This document shows positions 2,101-9,236 of a stretch of 22,726 nucleotides of DNA, in pieces. The first letter of the stretch is position 1; each line of letters starts with the position of its first letter. The position numbers were made by a program, and so were the translations under genes. The stretch comes from a virus. The stretch covers positions 1-22,726 of IMG/VR virus record IMGVR_UViG_3300037584_004438; one strand, written 5' to 3'. The notes beneath the pieces are model-generated. The model was not told the origin of the DNA and ran no database searches. It saw only the letters and a list, made by a program, of their open reading frames with translations.

Positions 2101-2853
2101 ATGACAAAAGTAATAGTTGATACGAAGAACTTTTTGAATTTCTTAACAGGATTTTCAAAAGGTGTACCCGACCTGCGTATAGACTGTGCAGGTTCACGTA
2201 TTACGATTGAGGTCGCTTATGCGTGGTACTACCTTCGTAAGCAATACATACCAGTAAGTATTGAAGAAGAAGGTGCATTACACATTGCAGACCTCGATAA
2301 GGTAATTAAATTCTTCAAGGCTACTAAAAACGCTCAAGTGACAATGAGACAGGCTTCCCCAAAGAAGCCGCTTCACTTAGTTGCTGGAGGTAATAAACTT
2401 CAACTACCAAGTACCGATGATATTGAATCAGGTATCAAAGCAGTAGTTATCAGAAAACTATTAAAGAACTGCGAGCAAAGCGGTTGGTCAAAACTCGGTG
2501 AACTTTCCCTTAGCACACATTCAACTATCGCAACTAAAGATTTAGTTTCATTATCAGCAATGAAAACTTTAATTGCTAAAGATTCTCAATTTAAACTCCG
2601 TATTCATTGTGGTGAGAATGAAATGGGTATCGTGGCTGGAAAGGCATCGAGTGGGCGTTTGTTCACTTCATTGACGGCCACTGATACTGATGGCCCTCCC
2701 ACTACTGTTGAATCGTATTTTGGTGAGTGGCTACCTTCATGTTTACAATTCCTTGATGAGGGGAATGCACGTATGCATTTAGGAATTGAAACACCTGTTA
2801 TATTTGAACAGGATAATACTTTACTCTTTATTTTAGATGAGAGTGATGACTAA
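2101..2853 (+). CDS. pcn: Divergent PCNA-like DNA sliding clamp
   Basis: A 250-residue protein, the usual length of an archaeal/eukaryotic PCNA subunit (about 245-260). The middle segment (ALHIADLDKVIKFFKATK, then LHLVAGGNKLQLPS) and the end (ARMHLGIETPVIFEQ followed by LLFILDESD) match the pattern of the interdomain region and the C-terminal beta strands of PCNA, which trimerises around DNA to tether polymerase. The N-terminal domain is poorly conserved and the usual acidic 'D..HV' loop is not apparent. The stop overlaps the PolB ATG (TAATG), so clamp and polymerase are translationally coupled, which strongly supports the call. No clamp-loader genes are seen in this window. The identification rests on length, C-terminal pattern and position; structure prediction would settle it. 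Confidence 0.6.
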   Translation: MTKVIVDTKNFLNFLTGFSKGVPDLRIDCAGSRITIEVAYAWYYLRKQYIPVSIEEEGALHIADLDKVIKFFKATKNAQVTMRQASPKKPLHLVAGGNKLQLPSTDDIESGIKAVVIRKLLKNCEQSGWSKLGELSLSTHSTIATKDLVSLSAMKTLIAKDSQFKLRIHCGENEMGIVAGKASSGRLFTSLTATDTDGPPTTVESYFGEWLPSCLQFLDEGNARMHLGIETPVIFEQDNTLLFILDESDD

Positions 2854-5264
2854 TGATTATCGATTGGTATTCGGACTTTATCGATGAGCCACCGATATTA
2901 TACCTACGCACACGTGGGGCTGATGGTGTACTTCATGAAAGATACATTACTGAGGATGATGAAGACTACGTTAAACCGTTCTTTTGGGTTCCTGAAAAAG
3001 CCCCTTACTGGGTAATGAATCGCCTCAAGTCATACAATGCAACTATCCATGAAGACATTAAAGCGGTAGGTCTTGATAATAAAATACTACTGAAAGTAAC
3101 TGTTGACCATCCGAATACATTATGGGAAATTAAAGACAAGTGTCCAAAGTACACTTATGAAGCAGACCTAAATTATCTTGACCAAATCTTACTCACAAAT
3201 TATCCTGAAAAGATACCTGAGTTCAAACCTCGCATTTGGTACTTTGACCTTGAATGGGATACGGGTGAGGATGATTTCACAACTGTCATGGCCGTATCTG
3301 ATTCATTCAGTGAACACCCTGTAGTGTTTGCTTGGAGTGAAGTGAGCATACGTGATACAATCCGAAAGAAAGTTTGGATTGATAGATATGGTGGGTATGA
3401 ATTACGCATCTTCCCGAATGAAGATGAAATGCATGATGCATTCCTCGGTTATCTTGAGGAGTGCGACCCCGATATTCTTGTAGCACACGCCATCGCTTGG
3501 GCTGACCTACCTCACTTGTACAGAAGGCTAGGAGCGCAGCGTGACAGACTCTCTCCGGTGAATCATGTTATACCACCACCAAAGAAAACTAATTCATACC
3601 GAACTACGGCTCAACCAATCAAAGGTCGTCTGATATACGATACTGCTGCTCAATGGACTGACGGTAGTGGCTTTGAAGCGATATGGCAAAAGTCAGGTAG
3701 GGGCCAAGCACAATCACGTAAGTTAGATTGGTTTGCTACGGCACTTGGATTTGAAGGAAAATTAACAAGTAAAATAGACGGGATGACAGTTCACAATGGA
3801 TGGTATGAATACTGGGATGACTTTGTTGATTACTGTTTAGTGGACACTACTCTCTTGCGTGACTGTGATGAGAAGTTGAATTGTATATCTTATCACGTCG
3901 CTATGCAGCAATTAGCAGGTATATCTTTTGGTAGCACACACAAGGTTAGCAGATACTTCCGTGGTTTGATAGGGAGGAGGACTGAGTTGAAAGCCCCTTC
4001 TTCTTACATAGCAGAAAGACCTGAACTACAGGCAGCATGGGTGATGCCACCCGTTGCTGGCCGTCATGAGAATGTTGCATTGAAAGATTTCGCTTCTCTA
4101 TATCCAAACATCATAACAAGTGCAAACTTATGTTATACGACACTGGTTGACGAAGGCGGAGAGAATATTTTAACAGTTAAAGTTCCTCCAAAGTATGATG
4201 ATAAAGGTACTGCGTTGCCGGGTACTGGGGGTACTTTCCACTGGAAACAAGATGTTGAGGGAATCCTTCCTTCAGTCGTAAAGGAGATGCTTGCGTTAAG
4301 GAAACACTACAAAAAACTCATGCGTGAGGCTGATGACCCTGATACTAAACTTGGTTACAACATGTTACAGATGGCCGTAAAGGTCGCCGTAAACGCAATC
4401 TATGGACTCACTGGTAGTAAAATAGTTGCAGGACAATGGAGTAGTTATCCTATCGCACAATGTATTACTTACCTCGGAAGAGAAGCAATTACTATGCTTG
4501 TAAAAGAAAGTGAAAAGAGAGGTTACAAGGCATTGGCTGGTCATACTGATTCCGTGTATGTTCAAGTTCCCTTTGATGAGGCAGAAGAATTATGCAGCAC
4601 ACTTACAGATATAGCACAAAATGAAATGAACCTACCTTATCTTGATGTTGAGTTTGAAGCCTTCTTCCCTTACTGGTTTACGGCTGCTACGAAGAACAGA
4701 AACTTCGGCATCAAATCTTGGCCTCCCGAAGATGAAGGGGATATGAAAGTTACAGGATTTGAAATGAAAGCGGCTAACGCTCCGCCTTTGAGTAAAAATC
4801 TTCAACGTGAAGTATTCACTATGATATGTAATGGTGCTGATGAGAAAGTGGTCTTCGATAAAATAAGACCTATAGTAAAGCGAGTTTACAGTGGTGAATG
4901 TGAAATTGATGATGTCGTTGCTTATGGAAGAGTGCAGAAGAAACTGGATGAATATGATAAGGTAGTCCCGAATGTAGCAAAGGCAGCAAGATACTCAAAC
5001 AAGTTCTTGGATACTAATTACGATAAGGGTGAAAGTATTAAGTGGCTTTTCATCAATGGGGTTCCCGAAGGTCAACCTCAGTGTAACGTCCTTGCTTTCA
5101 GTGAAATAGAACAACTTGATGGGTATTCCATTGACTGGACAACTTGTGTAAACAAATGGATTACTAAGAAGTTAAAACTTGTTTTTGATACGTTAGAATG
5201 GGATGTAGAAAGATTAACGGTGAGAAGAATACCGAGAACGTTTGAGTCGATGATAGGTGATTAA
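2853..5264 (+). CDS. polB: Family B DNA polymerase with 3'-5' exonuclease domain
   Basis: An 803-residue replicative polymerase. The exonuclease domain has Exo I (FDLEW, Asp132/Glu134), Exo II (DPDILVAHAIAWADLPHL, Asp218; the usual Asn and Phe of this motif are Ala) and Exo III (Tyr327-x3-Asp331), so proofreading should be intact. Polymerase motif A is DFASLYPNI (Asp412), motif B is KVAVNAIYG (Lys510, Asn514, Tyr517, Gly518), and motif C reads GHTDSVYV, with His564 where most family members have the first Asp of DTD and the second, metal-binding Asp566 kept. Length is close to archaeal cellular PolB enzymes; no protein-priming TPR insertions are evident, so it probably extends RNA/DNA primers laid down by the primase encoded downstream. 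The ATG overlaps the clamp stop. No PCNA-interacting motif is apparent at its C terminus. Confidence 0.97.
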   Translation: MIIDWYSDFIDEPPILYLRTRGADGVLHERYITEDDEDYVKPFFWVPEKAPYWVMNRLKSYNATIHEDIKAVGLDNKILLKVTVDHPNTLWEIKDKCPKYTYEADLNYLDQILLTNYPEKIPEFKPRIWYFDLEWDTGEDDFTTVMAVSDSFSEHPVVFAWSEVSIRDTIRKKVWIDRYGGYELRIFPNEDEMHDAFLGYLEECDPDILVAHAIAWADLPHLYRRLGAQRDRLSPVNHVIPPPKKTNSYRTTAQPIKGRLIYDTAAQWTDGSGFEAIWQKSGRGQAQSRKLDWFATALGFEGKLTSKIDGMTVHNGWYEYWDDFVDYCLVDTTLLRDCDEKLNCISYHVAMQQLAGISFGSTHKVSRYFRGLIGRRTELKAPSSYIAERPELQAAWVMPPVAGRHENVALKDFASLYPNIITSANLCYTTLVDEGGENILTVKVPPKYDDKGTALPGTGGTFHWKQDVEGILPSVVKEMLALRKHYKKLMREADDPDTKLGYNMLQMAVKVAVNAIYGLTGSKIVAGQWSSYPIAQCITYLGREAITMLVKESEKRGYKALAGHTDSVYVQVPFDEAEELCSTLTDIAQNEMNLPYLDVEFEAFFPYWFTAATKNRNFGIKSWPPEDEGDMKVTGFEMKAANAPPLSKNLQREVFTMICNGADEKVVFDKIRPIVKRVYSGECEIDDVVAYGRVQKKLDEYDKVVPNVAKAARYSNKFLDTNYDKGESIKWLFINGVPEGQPQCNVLAFSEIEQLDGYSIDWTTCVNKWITKKLKLVFDTLEWDVERLTVRRIPRTFESMIGD
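5255..5260 (+). promoter_or_regulatory. Ribosome-binding site deciding the MazG-like start
   Basis: AGGTGA, inside the 3' end of polB, lies 5 nt before the ATG at 5266. It favours that ATG over the in-frame GTG at 5257, which overlaps the site itself. Confidence 0.7.
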
Positions 5265-5265
5265 A

Positions 5266-5457
5266 ATGAGTAGGATAGAAGATGAAGTGTGCAAGAAGAT
5301 TCAAGCAAGGTCTGATGTTGGAAAAGAGAAGTATGGAGTGACCATGGAGACAGCGCCTCTGTCTCGTCTACAGTGGCTTATTCATGCACAAGAAGAAGCC
5401 ATGGACTTAGCGGTGTATCTCCAAAAACTGATTGAGTTAGAAGGTGAGAGTAAGTGA
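5266..5457 (+). CDS. Small MazG-like (NTP pyrophosphohydrolase-type) protein
   Basis: A 63-residue, mostly helical protein. It matches the short phage MazG-like/dNTP-pyrophosphohydrolase pattern: R-x3-GKEKYG near residues 15-24, then a helix with HAQEEAMDLAVYLQKL (residues 40-55) carrying the EExxD metal-binding motif (Glu43, Glu44, Asp47). Enzymes of this all-alpha family hydrolyse nucleoside triphosphates to monophosphates and pyrophosphate, and viral copies are thought to adjust nucleotide pools or alarmone levels. At 63 residues it holds only part of the four-helix fold, so it would have to work as a multimer or have a binding role. The start was chosen from the AGGTGA site upstream. Its stop overlaps the GTG of the next gene (GTGA). 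Confidence 0.6.
   Translation: MSRIEDEVCKKIQARSDVGKEKYGVTMETAPLSRLQWLIHAQEEAMDLAVYLQKLIELEGESK
5442..5448 (+). promoter_or_regulatory. Ribosome-binding site supporting a GTG start
   Basis: AGGTGAG lies 5 nt before the GTG at 5454 and supports initiation of the Cas4-like nuclease at this overlapping GTG rather than at a later ATG. Confidence 0.6.
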
Positions 5458-6482
5458 GATGGAATCCATCAGGTGATGATAGTCGTCAGAGGATTGATGA
5501 TTACTTAGAAAAGACAGGTAATAACAAAGAGGCAGAGTCATACAAGAAAAGCACATACGCTTGGAATCCAAACACAGACCAAGATAAGATTTTACGTGTC
5601 ACTAAGTCAAGTATCGGTACATACAACTGGTGTCCTGAACAATACTACATTGAAAAATTCAAAGGAGTGAGGGGCGAGGAACAACCTCATCACGTAAGAG
5701 GTAAAAACGTACACGATATGGTTGAATGGTTTTGGGATAATTTCACACTGAAAGATGACGTTCTAGCACTTATCAAAGAAGGAAAAGAAGAAGAGGCAAA
5801 AGAAGTCATGTACAATTTTATTCCATCTCCTCCCGAACCATATCAGTATGGGGAGGAGTTTCAAATCAGGCAATGGGTGGACTGGCAATTCTATAGACTG
5901 ATGCATACAGAAGGTGTTGAGTGGGAACCTGTAGCCGTTGAAGCAAATATTCAGGCCACTCGTTTTGTCGAAGTTGACGGTGAACATATCCCGATTCACA
6001 TGAATGGTTTCATCGATAGTATATTTTCTGATGATATGGGATTCGCATTGATGGAACTGAAGTCTGGTAAATATAAGGCTAAAAGTAAAGTCCCATCTAT
6101 GCGTAAAGAAATGGCGTTTTACAAGATGATGCTTGAACACAGTCCACATCAGGAGTTCTTACCCATTACAAACTGGGGTTGGGAGTTTCCGGGTGGTGAC
6201 ATAAACGGTGGAGAAGGTGCAGCCATATATTATGAAGATGCTAAGAAAGGTGGTAAGTACGCCATGAGAAGTGTTGAAAAGAGTTTAGTCAAATTAATTA
6301 GGGCACACATGGATATGGACTTCCCATCTAATCCGTGGCTTGGAAAAATGAGGGAAGGAGAAACCCTAGAAACAATGCTTGAGAACAATCGATTGAAATG
6401 TTCTTGGTGCGACTTGAAAGAACACTGTTCTTTTTGGTCAATTACAGATGAATTCCTTGATGAAATAATGGAGGATGTATAA
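5454..6482 (+). CDS. Cas4/RecB-like PD-(D/E)XK nuclease with Fe-S cysteines
   Basis: A 342-residue protein of the Cas4/RecB-type PD-(D/E)XK superfamily. In order: the SxSxI-type motif with the first cysteine (SSIGTYNWCPEQYY, Cys60); a His motif GKNVHDMVEWFW (His87); the nuclease core with GFIDSIF (Asp188) and MELKSGK (Glu201, Lys203); and a C-terminal cysteine trio (Cys316, Cys319, Cys325). One N-terminal plus three C-terminal cysteines is the 4Fe-4S pattern of Cas4, AddB and related end-processing exonucleases. It probably resects DNA ends in viral replication, recombination or packaging; there is no cas1/cas2 or CRISPR array nearby, so adaptation is not implied. A Glu/Lys-rich insertion lies at about residues 100-120. 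The GTG start overlaps the previous stop; its own stop overlaps the next ATG (TAATG). Confidence 0.85.
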   Translation: MRWNPSGDDSRQRIDDYLEKTGNNKEAESYKKSTYAWNPNTDQDKILRVTKSSIGTYNWCPEQYYIEKFKGVRGEEQPHHVRGKNVHDMVEWFWDNFTLKDDVLALIKEGKEEEAKEVMYNFIPSPPEPYQYGEEFQIRQWVDWQFYRLMHTEGVEWEPVAVEANIQATRFVEVDGEHIPIHMNGFIDSIFSDDMGFALMELKSGKYKAKSKVPSMRKEMAFYKMMLEHSPHQEFLPITNWGWEFPGGDINGGEGAAIYYEDAKKGGKYAMRSVEKSLVKLIRAHMDMDFPSNPWLGKMREGETLETMLENNRLKCSWCDLKEHCSFWSITDEFLDEIMEDV

Positions 6483-6781
6483 TGGAAACAAGATTGAAAT
6501 TAATGGAAATGCTGGTGAACGAAAAAATGAGAAATGATGACTACGTTGTTTTTCTCAAGAAAGGAAGAGGGTTTAGAAACGCAAGAGATGTTTTCAAACG
6601 TAGTATTGGAAGACAAACTACTTTGGATGAATTCTTTGATGTGGGTGTAGAGGCAAGATTACAACACCCTACAGAAATAGTCTATTACATCAATCCCGCT
6701 CACTTGAGGGAAGATAATACCATTGGAACTGTGAAAAAGATATTAGCAGATGTTGATAGTTACTTACATAATAAAAGGTGA
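6482..6781 (+). CDS. Unknown 99-residue protein with PIP box
   Basis: I do not recognise the fold. The protein is small and basic, with a helical N terminus, a central Arg/Lys-rich stretch (KKGRGFRNARDVFKRS) and then RQTTLDEFF at residues 44-52. That fits the PCNA-interacting consensus Q-x-x-(L/I/M)-x-x-(F/Y)-(F/Y), with Gln45, Leu48, Phe51 and Phe52, and a basic residue in front. In many PIP proteins the motif sits in a flexible segment next to a folded domain; here it is mid-protein. The gene lies between the Cas4-like nuclease (TAATG overlap, GGAGG at 6470-6474 as ribosome-binding site) and the primase, three genes after PolB. I infer an adaptor or regulator that docks on the viral or host clamp. 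It could also be a nuclease or primase cofactor. Confidence 0.6.
   Translation: METRLKLMEMLVNEKMRNDDYVVFLKKGRGFRNARDVFKRSIGRQTTLDEFFDVGVEARLQHPTEIVYYINPAHLREDNTIGTVKKILADVDSYLHNKR
6614..6637 (+). other. PIP-box coding segment (QTTLDEFF)
   Basis: These 24 nt encode Q-T-T-L-D-E-F-F, a full match to the PCNA-interacting peptide consensus. It closely resembles the KQ-T-T-L-type PIP boxes of clamp loaders and nucleases in archaea and eukaryotes. Confidence 0.75.
6776..6781 (+). promoter_or_regulatory. Ribosome-binding site deciding the primase start
   Basis: AGGTGA overlaps the TGA stop of the PIP-box gene and lies 4 nt before the ATG at 6786. It favours 6786 over the upstream in-frame ATG at 6750, which would lie inside the previous gene. 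Confidence 0.75.
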
Positions 6782-6785
6782 TTCT

Positions 6786-7874
6786 ATGACGTTTGTCCCT
6801 ATCGACTTCCCAAGAGAGGTTCTTGAGATAACGAGTAACGGCGATAGGGGTTGGAGAAGGCTAGTAAAATCGTCTGATGATTTGGAAAGATATTGGAAAG
6901 GTAAAAACGGTAGTGGTAATGTTTACTTTACCGCTTATGGTTTTTCACATACAGAAGCACCAAAACATCACCGTGTCGATTACAACACACCGAAGATACA
7001 TCACTTTATCATGGATTTTGATTGTAAGGATTTCAAGAACAATGGAACAAATGTACCTTTTGAAGTGCCACATAAAGAAGTGACAAAATTACACAGGATG
7101 TTAATGAAGGACAACATACTTCATTTTGTTTGGTTTAGTGGTGGTGGTTTTCACGTATGGGTTCCATTAGCAAAGTCACTCCATCCTAGAAATGGAAATG
7201 AACTTTCACGAATAAAGTATTCAGGGAGGGTTCTTCTGAATGAGTGGGATAGAAAATTAGGCGGTCTGAGGTGTAATGACCCTACAGTTGCATTTGATAC
7301 TAGCGGAATGATAAGAATACCTAATTCGTATAATGCAAAGAGAGAATGCTGGTCTATCCCTTTAACAAGTGAAGAAATTACCAACGGAGATTTTGACTTC
7401 TTCATGAATAAGGCACAAGAGTCCGACTCCGGCTACATCGCATTAGGAGAAGTACCGCTCGAATTTGAAGTAGTCAAAAATAAGTTTATGGATGTAAGTA
7501 ATATTAAACCAGTGTATGTTCCACCTGTTTCTTTTGACAATATACACATTCTTCCTTGTTTGGCTCAAGCCGCTTTGGGGGAGGGAAATCCTATTCACAG
7601 GGCTAGGTATCACCTTGCCTCATACTTGGCAGATAGACTTCGTATGTTCTTCCCCGCTTGGCGTGTAACTAATGAAGAAAAGAAAAAACATGTCAAACAA
7701 ATTAGTGCTTTCTGTGCGAGTCAAGGTTGGGTCGATTACAAGAAAGAAAAAACTATTGAACAAGTTCAAAGCATCGTGATGAAAGGCTACCCTCACGCCA
7801 CTTGTGCCACTCTATATGAAGAGGGGTTCTGCGTGGGTAAATGTCAGTATTACGATGGAAGCATGGGTGATTAA
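6786..7874 (+). CDS. priS: Single-chain archaeo-eukaryotic primase: PriS core plus PriL-type Fe-S domain
   Basis: A 362-residue protein from the ATG at 6786. The AEP catalytic core shows all three signature motifs: FIMDFD (Asp77, Asp79, metal ligands), WFSGGGFHVW (Ser118 to His123, nucleotide binding) and VAFDTSGMIRIPNSYN (Asp171 with Arg177). The C-terminal ~110 residues match the PriL C-terminal iron-sulphur domain: a first cysteine (Cys258), H-R-A-R-Y-H-L near 271-277, a T-x-x-Q-V helix (323-327), then Cys340, Cys349 and Cys353 near the end. In cells these domains sit on two subunits; here they form one chain, as in some archaeal plasmid and viral primases. It should synthesise primers for the nearby PolB. 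Start choice follows the AGGTGA site. The core identification is firm; the Fe-S assignment rests on the four-cysteine spacing and flanking motifs. Confidence 0.9.
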   Translation: MTFVPIDFPREVLEITSNGDRGWRRLVKSSDDLERYWKGKNGSGNVYFTAYGFSHTEAPKHHRVDYNTPKIHHFIMDFDCKDFKNNGTNVPFEVPHKEVTKLHRMLMKDNILHFVWFSGGGFHVWVPLAKSLHPRNGNELSRIKYSGRVLLNEWDRKLGGLRCNDPTVAFDTSGMIRIPNSYNAKRECWSIPLTSEEITNGDFDFFMNKAQESDSGYIALGEVPLEFEVVKNKFMDVSNIKPVYVPPVSFDNIHILPCLAQAALGEGNPIHRARYHLASYLADRLRMFFPAWRVTNEEKKKHVKQISAFCASQGWVDYKKEKTIEQVQSIVMKGYPHATCATLYEEGFCVGKCQYYDGSMGD

Positions 7875-8284: not shown

Positions 8285-8545
8285 ATGTTATGGACTGAAA
8301 AAGCAAAAGAAATATTTAACAATACAGAACAATGGATAGATTTTAATAAATTTATTTGTTTAAGAAAAAAAGAAAAAGAATTTTTTAAAAGGTTTAACGT
8401 AACTAAAAATGACCCGTTACCTACTGAATTCCCTCTAATGAATTGGTTTTTAGCAGGAGCGGTTATGAACGATGATGAAGTAATCCATGATATGGAATTA
8501 CTTTTTCATCTATTTAAACAATGGAAAGGGGATAATGATGAGTAA
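8285..8545 (+). CDS. Unknown 86-residue protein, AT-rich gene
   Basis: No family recognised. The protein is rich in Lys, Phe, Asn and aromatic residues and looks helical throughout, with amphipathic segments (WTEKAKEIF, FNKFICLRKKEKEFFKRF and a C-terminal DMELLFHLFKQW). There is no signal peptide or membrane span. A good GGAGG site and tight coupling (8-nt overlap with the downstream ERCC4-type gene) support it as real. It shares high A+T with the preceding gene, unlike the primase and nuclease that flank the pair. A small inhibitory or adaptor protein is conceivable, but nothing in the sequence shows a function. Confidence 0.6.
   Translation: MLWTEKAKEIFNNTEQWIDFNKFICLRKKEKEFFKRFNVTKNDPLPTEFPLMNWFLAGAVMNDDEVIHDMELLFHLFKQWKGDNDE
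8525..8531 (+). promoter_or_regulatory. Ribosome-binding site for the ERCC4-type nuclease
   Basis: AAAGGGG lies 6 nt before the ATG at 8538 and supports a start at 8538 (or the adjacent ATG at 8535) over the far upstream ATG at 8487. Confidence 0.6.
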
Positions 8546-9236
8546 ATATCCTGACTTGATAATCGATACAAATGAAAGAGGTAGCCTTTGTGAATCTATA
8601 GAACGACGTGCTAAGAAGTCAGGGATGTTTGTTGTAAGAAAAAATTTGATAGTAGGTGACTACTTACTTGGGGGTGCTTTAGTTGAGGCCAAGTCAATCC
8701 CTGACCTCTTTCAGTCATCTCATTCAGGTCATCTTTGGAGACAACTTGATAATATGGATGCAAACTTTGAAAGATTCTTTTTAGTCGTGCATGGTACTGT
8801 TGAGAAGTATGTGGCGATTGCGAGAAAGAACGGTAACAGATTATCTTATTCCAAAGTACAAAACGAACTCACAGGTACATTAGCGAGAGTGATGAGTGAC
8901 TTTGATTGCCAAGTGTTCTTCACTTCAAACACCAGTGAAGCAGCACAGTTTATTGTAAAACTCCACGAGAAGATACACAAACCAGCAAGTAAGCATGGGG
9001 CACAGTCTTTACGTCGTGTCGCTAGTAATGATTTGAGATTGGATATGTTGATGACAGTACCGGGTATAGGTAGGGAAATTGCTGAAAGGATTCTTGAAAA
9101 GTGTGGTAGTATCGAGGAGATGTGTTTTCCTGAATCACTGAAACAAATCAAGGGATTGGGCGAGGTAAGAAGAAAATTAATTGTTAAAATACTTACTAGC
9201 GAAGAACCCGTAAAACAACAAAACAAGAAGCGTTGA
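8538..9236 (+). CDS. ERCC4-family (XPF/Hef-type) nuclease with helix-hairpin-helix domain
   Basis: A 232-residue protein matching the nuclease half of archaeal XPF/Hef. The ERCC4 nuclease domain has IIDTNERG (Asp10, Glu13, Arg14), VGDY (Asp41) and VEAKSIPDL (Glu50, Lys52, Asp56). In most XPF/Mus81 enzymes this last motif reads ERKx3D; here the Arg is Ala51. The C-terminal part has two hairpins, MTVPGIGREIAERIL and IKGLGEVRRKLI, forming an (HhH)2 DNA-binding unit. Enzymes of this family cut 3' flaps, forks and nicked junctions, so this one may process viral replication or recombination intermediates. The N-terminal helicase of Hef is absent. It ends in a Lys/Gln-rich tail with no PIP box. The start follows an AAAGGGG site and overlaps the previous gene. 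Confidence 0.9.
   Translation: MSKYPDLIIDTNERGSLCESIERRAKKSGMFVVRKNLIVGDYLLGGALVEAKSIPDLFQSSHSGHLWRQLDNMDANFERFFLVVHGTVEKYVAIARKNGNRLSYSKVQNELTGTLARVMSDFDCQVFFTSNTSEAAQFIVKLHEKIHKPASKHGAQSLRRVASNDLRLDMLMTVPGIGREIAERILEKCGSIEEMCFPESLKQIKGLGEVRRKLIVKILTSEEPVKQQNKKR

Follow-up and report, generated by a model that had tools for sequence, protein, structure and literature searches.

The 99-aa protein encoded at positions 6482–6781 (+ strand) of the analysed viral DNA is probably a clamp adaptor of a magrovirus replisome, acting for the adjoining nuclease or primase. The analysed DNA, called the window below, is the whole stretch of 22,726 nucleotides of the IMG/VR record IMGVR_UViG_3300037584_004438. 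The adaptor idea is supported by the conservation of Q45, L48 and F51 of the protein, by its gene order, by the co-occurrence of a virus-encoded clamp and by the recurrence of the box on other, unrelated small ORFs. In the proposed mechanism, a flexible loop between the second and third strands would present a PIP-type box (Q-x-T-L-x-x-F), which would dock into the peptide-binding pocket of the PCNA-like clamp that the virus itself encodes. What remains of the small fold would hold an enzyme, the primase and the PD-(D/E)XK nuclease being the most likely partners. We infer the binding of the box to the clamp, the virus clamp rather than host PCNA as its target and the client enzyme alike; the nuclease and the primase are the most likely clients because the three genes form an unbroken triad.

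Gene context and the virus clamp

The replication genes of the window lie on the + strand. A sliding clamp (2101–2853) is followed by a family B DNA polymerase (PolB, 2853–5264), lacking a C-terminal PIP box, and by a 66-aa protein (5257–5457) that matches PHROGs of unknown function. Then come a PD-(D/E)XK (Cas4/RecB-like) nuclease (5454–6482), the 99-aa gene, an archaeo-eukaryotic type primase (6786–7874) and an ERCC4/XPF-Hef nuclease with an HhH domain (8535–9236). The 99-aa gene, defined by ORF calls, translation and 60 distinct positional homologs, starts with an ATG that overlaps the nuclease stop codon by 1 base (TAATG), and the primase gene starts 4 bases after its end.

The order nuclease, 99-aa gene, primase is unbroken across the relatives. 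In each of the 60 distinct homologs, 0 to 14 bases separate the gene from the primase; for the 54 in which the nuclease was seen, the distance from the nuclease is between −37 and 65 bases. The interval from PolB to the nuclease ranges from 175 to 4023 bases, and most other operon intervals vary by hundreds to thousands of bases. A tree comparison singled out neither the nuclease nor the primase as a partner of the 99-aa protein (partial correlations all ≤ 0.15).

The gene content of the window (PolB, a PCNA-fold clamp, the PD-(D/E)XK nuclease, the primase, the ERCC4/Hef nuclease and a thermosome) matches published descriptions of magroviruses and suggests that the window virus is one of them (PMC10768690, PMC10160649). 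These viruses form the order Magrovirales, which includes Aoguangviridae and unclassified relatives and is linked to Poseidoniales (PMC10768690, PMC10160649). Tail-type late genes are found on the opposite strand of the window. The window primase gave no match to named phage records, and a chaperonin-based genome scan for the host returned one distant archaeon only. Magroviruses infect marine archaea, are widespread and have replisomes that are nearly complete; to our knowledge, none has been cultured.

The clamp named in the preliminary description as part of the same operon was borne out by structure prediction. Its model (pLDDT 92.7) has the two-domain PCNA fold and aligns with Haloferax volcanii PCNA over 221 residues (Z 19.3, rmsd 3.0). 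No PCNA match to the clamp sequence was found among Pfam models or in a PDB sequence search, since the sequence is too divergent. Wherever the DNA upstream of PolB was long enough to show it, the clamp gene was there (49/49 loci). In the model, the connector between the two domains (about residues 103–138) contains a helix and is apparently longer than that of cellular PCNA, so that the peptide pocket may differ from that of PCNA. A long helical connector has been reported for the PCNA of African swine fever virus (PMC10506467).

The larger replisome enzymes were reviewed for boxes of their own. No conserved box was seen in PolB across the relatives, the C-terminus of which is usually a short run of basic residues closed by an aromatic one (PKKHW, PRKLW). 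None was found among the primase sequences reviewed, and a motif scan of the replisome regions listed no box in the XPF and 464-aa proteins. We did not accept the nuclease motif QYY[IL]EKF as a PIP box; by our own reading, it belongs to the PD-(D/E)XK fold, in its conserved N-terminal region. Among the ligase-domain proteins of six relatives, a good box (GQMTLDQF) was found, ahead of the ligase-like domain, in G010 only; for G001 and G012, the scan covered part of the protein.

Two side observations concern these enzymes. The C-terminal Cys pattern of the primase (HATCATLYEEGFCVGKC) resembles by eye the iron-sulfur domain of PriL, and the enzyme may thus be a fusion of PriS and PriL. In magroviruses, very long proteins of about 1750–1930 aa carry the DNA ligase domain close to the C-terminus (L117, 4565–9808, in G010; counterparts in L132, L135, L140, L112 and L146), which is an unusual ligase context.

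The box and its conservation in the 99-aa family

Translation confirmed that QTTLDEFF (residues 45–52; 6614–6637, + strand) is a complete match to the PIP-box consensus (Qxx[LIMV]xx[FYWH][FYWH]), as the preliminary description had stated. Its other statement on the protein, that no recognised domain is present, agrees with the lack of matches in Pfam, PHROG and NCBIfam. In shuffles of the 99-aa protein, a canonical box arose in 0.77% and a loose box in 4.8%; therefore, the box in a single sequence is weak evidence. The strong support for the box is comparative.

A direct search of viral contigs and phage records with the 99-aa sequence found no relatives, and no segment of the family profile was sufficiently conserved to be used for scanning the collection. 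Homologs were reached by searches with the adjoining primase and nuclease, which gave about 110 loci; every locus with the primase start covered has an ORF of about 92–147 aa directly upstream of the primase. Conservation was counted in 60 distinct positional homologs from magrovirus-like contigs. With a profile of the family, a single full-length copy was recovered from every one of 12 long relatives. The family evolves far more rapidly than the neighbouring genes, its mean pairwise distance being 1.49 vs 0.33–0.89 for them.

After the start Met, the most conserved columns in the 60 homologs are Q45, F51, L48 and T47. The first box position is Q in 58/60, the fourth is L/I in 59/60, the seventh is F/Y/W in 57/60 and the third is T/S in 55/60. 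The family motif is thus Q-x-[TS]-L-x-x-[FYW]. The preliminary description had proposed conservation of Gln45, Leu48, Phe51 and Phe52 as a check of its idea; the first three residues stood, and Phe52 did not, an aromatic residue at position 8 being present in 4/60 only (the window virus, L078, L079 and L095). Of the confirmed PCNA motifs collected in one curated set, 43% lack one of the two aromatic residues (PMC6881253), so the family motif is still within the known range of clamp binding. Acidic residues usually follow the box in the homologs, and such residues have been associated with weaker PCNA binding (PMC6881253).

Loss of the box from a retained protein, which the preliminary description had counted against its own proposal, does occur. 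In L108 and L110, the only two viruses in which the Gln is lost, the box is gone outright (RILIENY at the box position in L110), while the remaining sequence is still alignable. It is degenerate in L097 and L103, and the homologs of L098, L100 and L101 have Q-L-[VI]-[LI]-x-D-Y at this position. L108 and L110 carry tandem boxes instead on a mini-ORF directly behind PolB.

The box fits the Qxx-aliphatic-xx-aromatic-aromatic pattern of archaeal and eukaryotic PCNA partners such as MSH6, UNG2, p21 and FEN1, and the proven PIP peptides of MSH6, UNG2 and p21 resemble it closely (PMC6881253). MSH6 (RQSTLYSFF) and p21 (RQTSMTDFY) share with the 99-aa protein the Arg before the Gln and Thr/Ser at position 3 (PMC6881253). 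The family differs from these proteins in the rarity of the second aromatic residue and in that its candidate partner is a viral and very divergent clamp. In addition, the archaeal PIP boxes in PMC6881253 are C-terminal, whereas the 99-aa protein has its box in a loop within a small fold.

The model of the 99-aa protein (pLDDT 79.9, pTM 0.70) has the order helix, strand, strand, box loop, strand, helix. The box follows the second strand, with a short predicted helical turn at residues 48–51, in a loop of lower confidence (mean pLDDT 69 for residues 41–50 and 56 for residues 51–60). In the model, this turn looks like the conformation of bound PIP peptides (PMC6881253). Foldseek and VIA searches with the model gave no clear fold match, and the family profile, the box peptide and a tandem-box mini-protein had no significant matches when searched against PDB sequences. 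The best structural neighbour was a selecase/minigluzincin of M. jannaschii (4qhh; Z 7.7, rmsd 2.6, 75 residues), at a Z below the level that separates it from chance; a selecase function was rejected, HExxH being present in 0/60 homologs.

The same box on other small proteins

Two further types of small ORFs with the same box came out of a motif scan across the replisome region. The first comprises zinc-ribbon-like ORFs of 61–77 aa, with sequences such as CCNCGGKIMRQTTLDEFFD, which lie between PolB and the nuclease in L023, L038, L040, L048, L050, L063 and L079. The second is a tandem-box mini-protein encoded directly behind PolB in L095, L098, L100, L101, L108 and L110 (in L110, MKKTRQTTLDEYGLTTDGRRQTKLTEFGMTFEV). 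The mini-ORFs of L098 and L101 differ at 5 codons synonymously and at 1 non-synonymously, the pattern expected of a gene. The viruses with this carrier look like a single clade, so the swap to tandem boxes would be one replacement event. The profile of the 99-aa family matched the zinc-ribbon ORF of G002 over 17 box residues only, and hence the types of carriers seem not to be homologous.

In seven long relatives, with the 99-aa homologs included, QTTL/QMTL occurred 16 times vs 3.9 expected, and Qx[TS][LIM]xx[FYW] occurred 23 times vs 12.2 expected. Control patterns with a different first residue showed no enrichment.

It should also be mentioned that about 25 otherwise unrelated proteins have a common N-terminal tag, M-x-x-F-[DEQ]-x-AW-x-LLK (e.g., MNPFDQAWGLLK and MFEKAWRFLK). 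The tag was found in the first 26 residues of 34/993 ORFs vs 29/6451 other windows of 26 residues; examples are in L116 (1731–7356), L141 (8660–17187), L134/L135/L137 and L123, from the relatives G010, G005, G002 and G012. Hypothetically, it could be a capsid-targeting or cargo signal. In several tagged late proteins, a PIP-like box directly follows the tag (FLKATRQTTLGEFHPDFPSP, FLKASRQMKLYNY), as in L137 (1244–2344), L050 (12850–13323) and L061 (12259–12741) and also in L055, L024 and L057. Going by these motifs, virion-associated tagged proteins may bind a clamp too.

Proposed role and alternatives

The preliminary description had offered two roles for the protein, a clamp adaptor bringing the nuclease or primase to the fork and a decoy. 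The first was strengthened by the conserved Q45, L48 and F51, the gene order, the clamp in the same loci and the reuse of the box, and was weakened by the behaviour of Phe52. Several further points count against it: besides the aromatic residue missing in 56/60 homologs, these are the acidic residues after the box, the losses in L108 and L110, the degenerate boxes of L097 and L103, the restriction of the tandem-box swap to one clade, the location in an internal loop, the possibly different pocket of the modelled clamp and the tree comparison that gave no partner.

More tentatively, the adaptor may be part of a wider arrangement, in which the replisome would be tethered to the clamp in trans. 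The polymerase and, among the sequences reviewed, the primase and nuclease would have no conserved box, and interchangeable small carriers (the 99-aa fold, the zinc-ribbon-like protein and the tandem-box mini-protein behind PolB) would bear an RQTTLxEF clip and replace one another; the late tagged proteins may share the clip.

The second proposed role, the capture of host PCNA, we consider unlikely; a decoy or inhibitor comparable with p21 or the Thermococcales inhibitor of PCNA (TIP) would serve to stop host replication. In its favour, the 99-aa protein is small and free-standing and, in the window virus, bears a canonical box, and small archaeal PCNA inhibitors such as TIP are known (PMC10506467). 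Both TIP and p21-type inhibitors are small proteins with clamp binding as their main feature, as is putatively the case here. However, these inhibitors act on cellular PCNA, whereas every virus locus able to show a clamp has one, so that a decoy would risk titrating the virus clamp. The overlap or near contact of the gene with the nuclease and primase genes in all relatives also fits a part of the replisome better.

It is similarly unlikely that the box is a portable viral short motif with a partner other than the clamp, for example, another viral hub protein. Similar boxes directly behind the N-terminal tag in apparent late or virion-module proteins (e.g., FLKATRQTTLGEFHPDF), where a clamp role is not obvious, would speak for it. 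However, the box agrees with the PIP consensus position by position, three of the types of carriers sit in the operon that encodes the clamp, and the data suggest no other partner.

Slightly less probable still is a role in transcription, in which the protein, through a putative clamp-binding box, would connect the virus clamp, once loaded, with the machinery that transcribes late genes. In phage T4, the sliding clamp is reported to be an activator of late genes through small clamp-binding proteins (PMC2988020, PMC7892883). T4 gp33 and gp55 are comparable in being small, encoded by the virus and dependent on its clamp for their action in late transcription (PMC7892883). The small size of the 99-aa protein, its lack of an enzyme domain and the TFB encoded by a related magrovirus (PMC10768690) are in line with such a role. 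Against this, the 99-aa gene is within the replication operon, always between the nuclease and the primase, the protein has no transcription-related domain, and no sequence match to gp33 or gp55 and, in structure searches with the model, no gp33-type fold match was seen.

A purely structural role of the Q-T-L-F residues, with a coincidental likeness to PIP boxes, is the least likely reading and very improbable, because, although the model places these residues beside a strand and partial burial has been described for some PIP motifs within ordered regions (PMC6881253), the box recurs outside the 99-aa fold, in short, unstructured-looking ORFs, and the homologs of L108 and L110 lack these residues while the rest still aligns.

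The binding of PIP boxes to clamps is a known mode. What appears to be new, as judged from the sequences compared, is a fast-evolving, uncharacterised virus family that keeps little besides the box, together with the apparent exchange of this box between unrelated small carriers in one operon. A literature search that took in few subscription journals found no paper on PIP boxes or box exchange in magroviruses. The clamp-adaptor idea is directly testable with a few recombinant proteins. If it is true, RQTTLxEF would be a sequence handle for finding clamp partners in magroviruses, and a conserved adaptor with an exchangeable clip would explain the processivity of a polymerase without a recognisable box.
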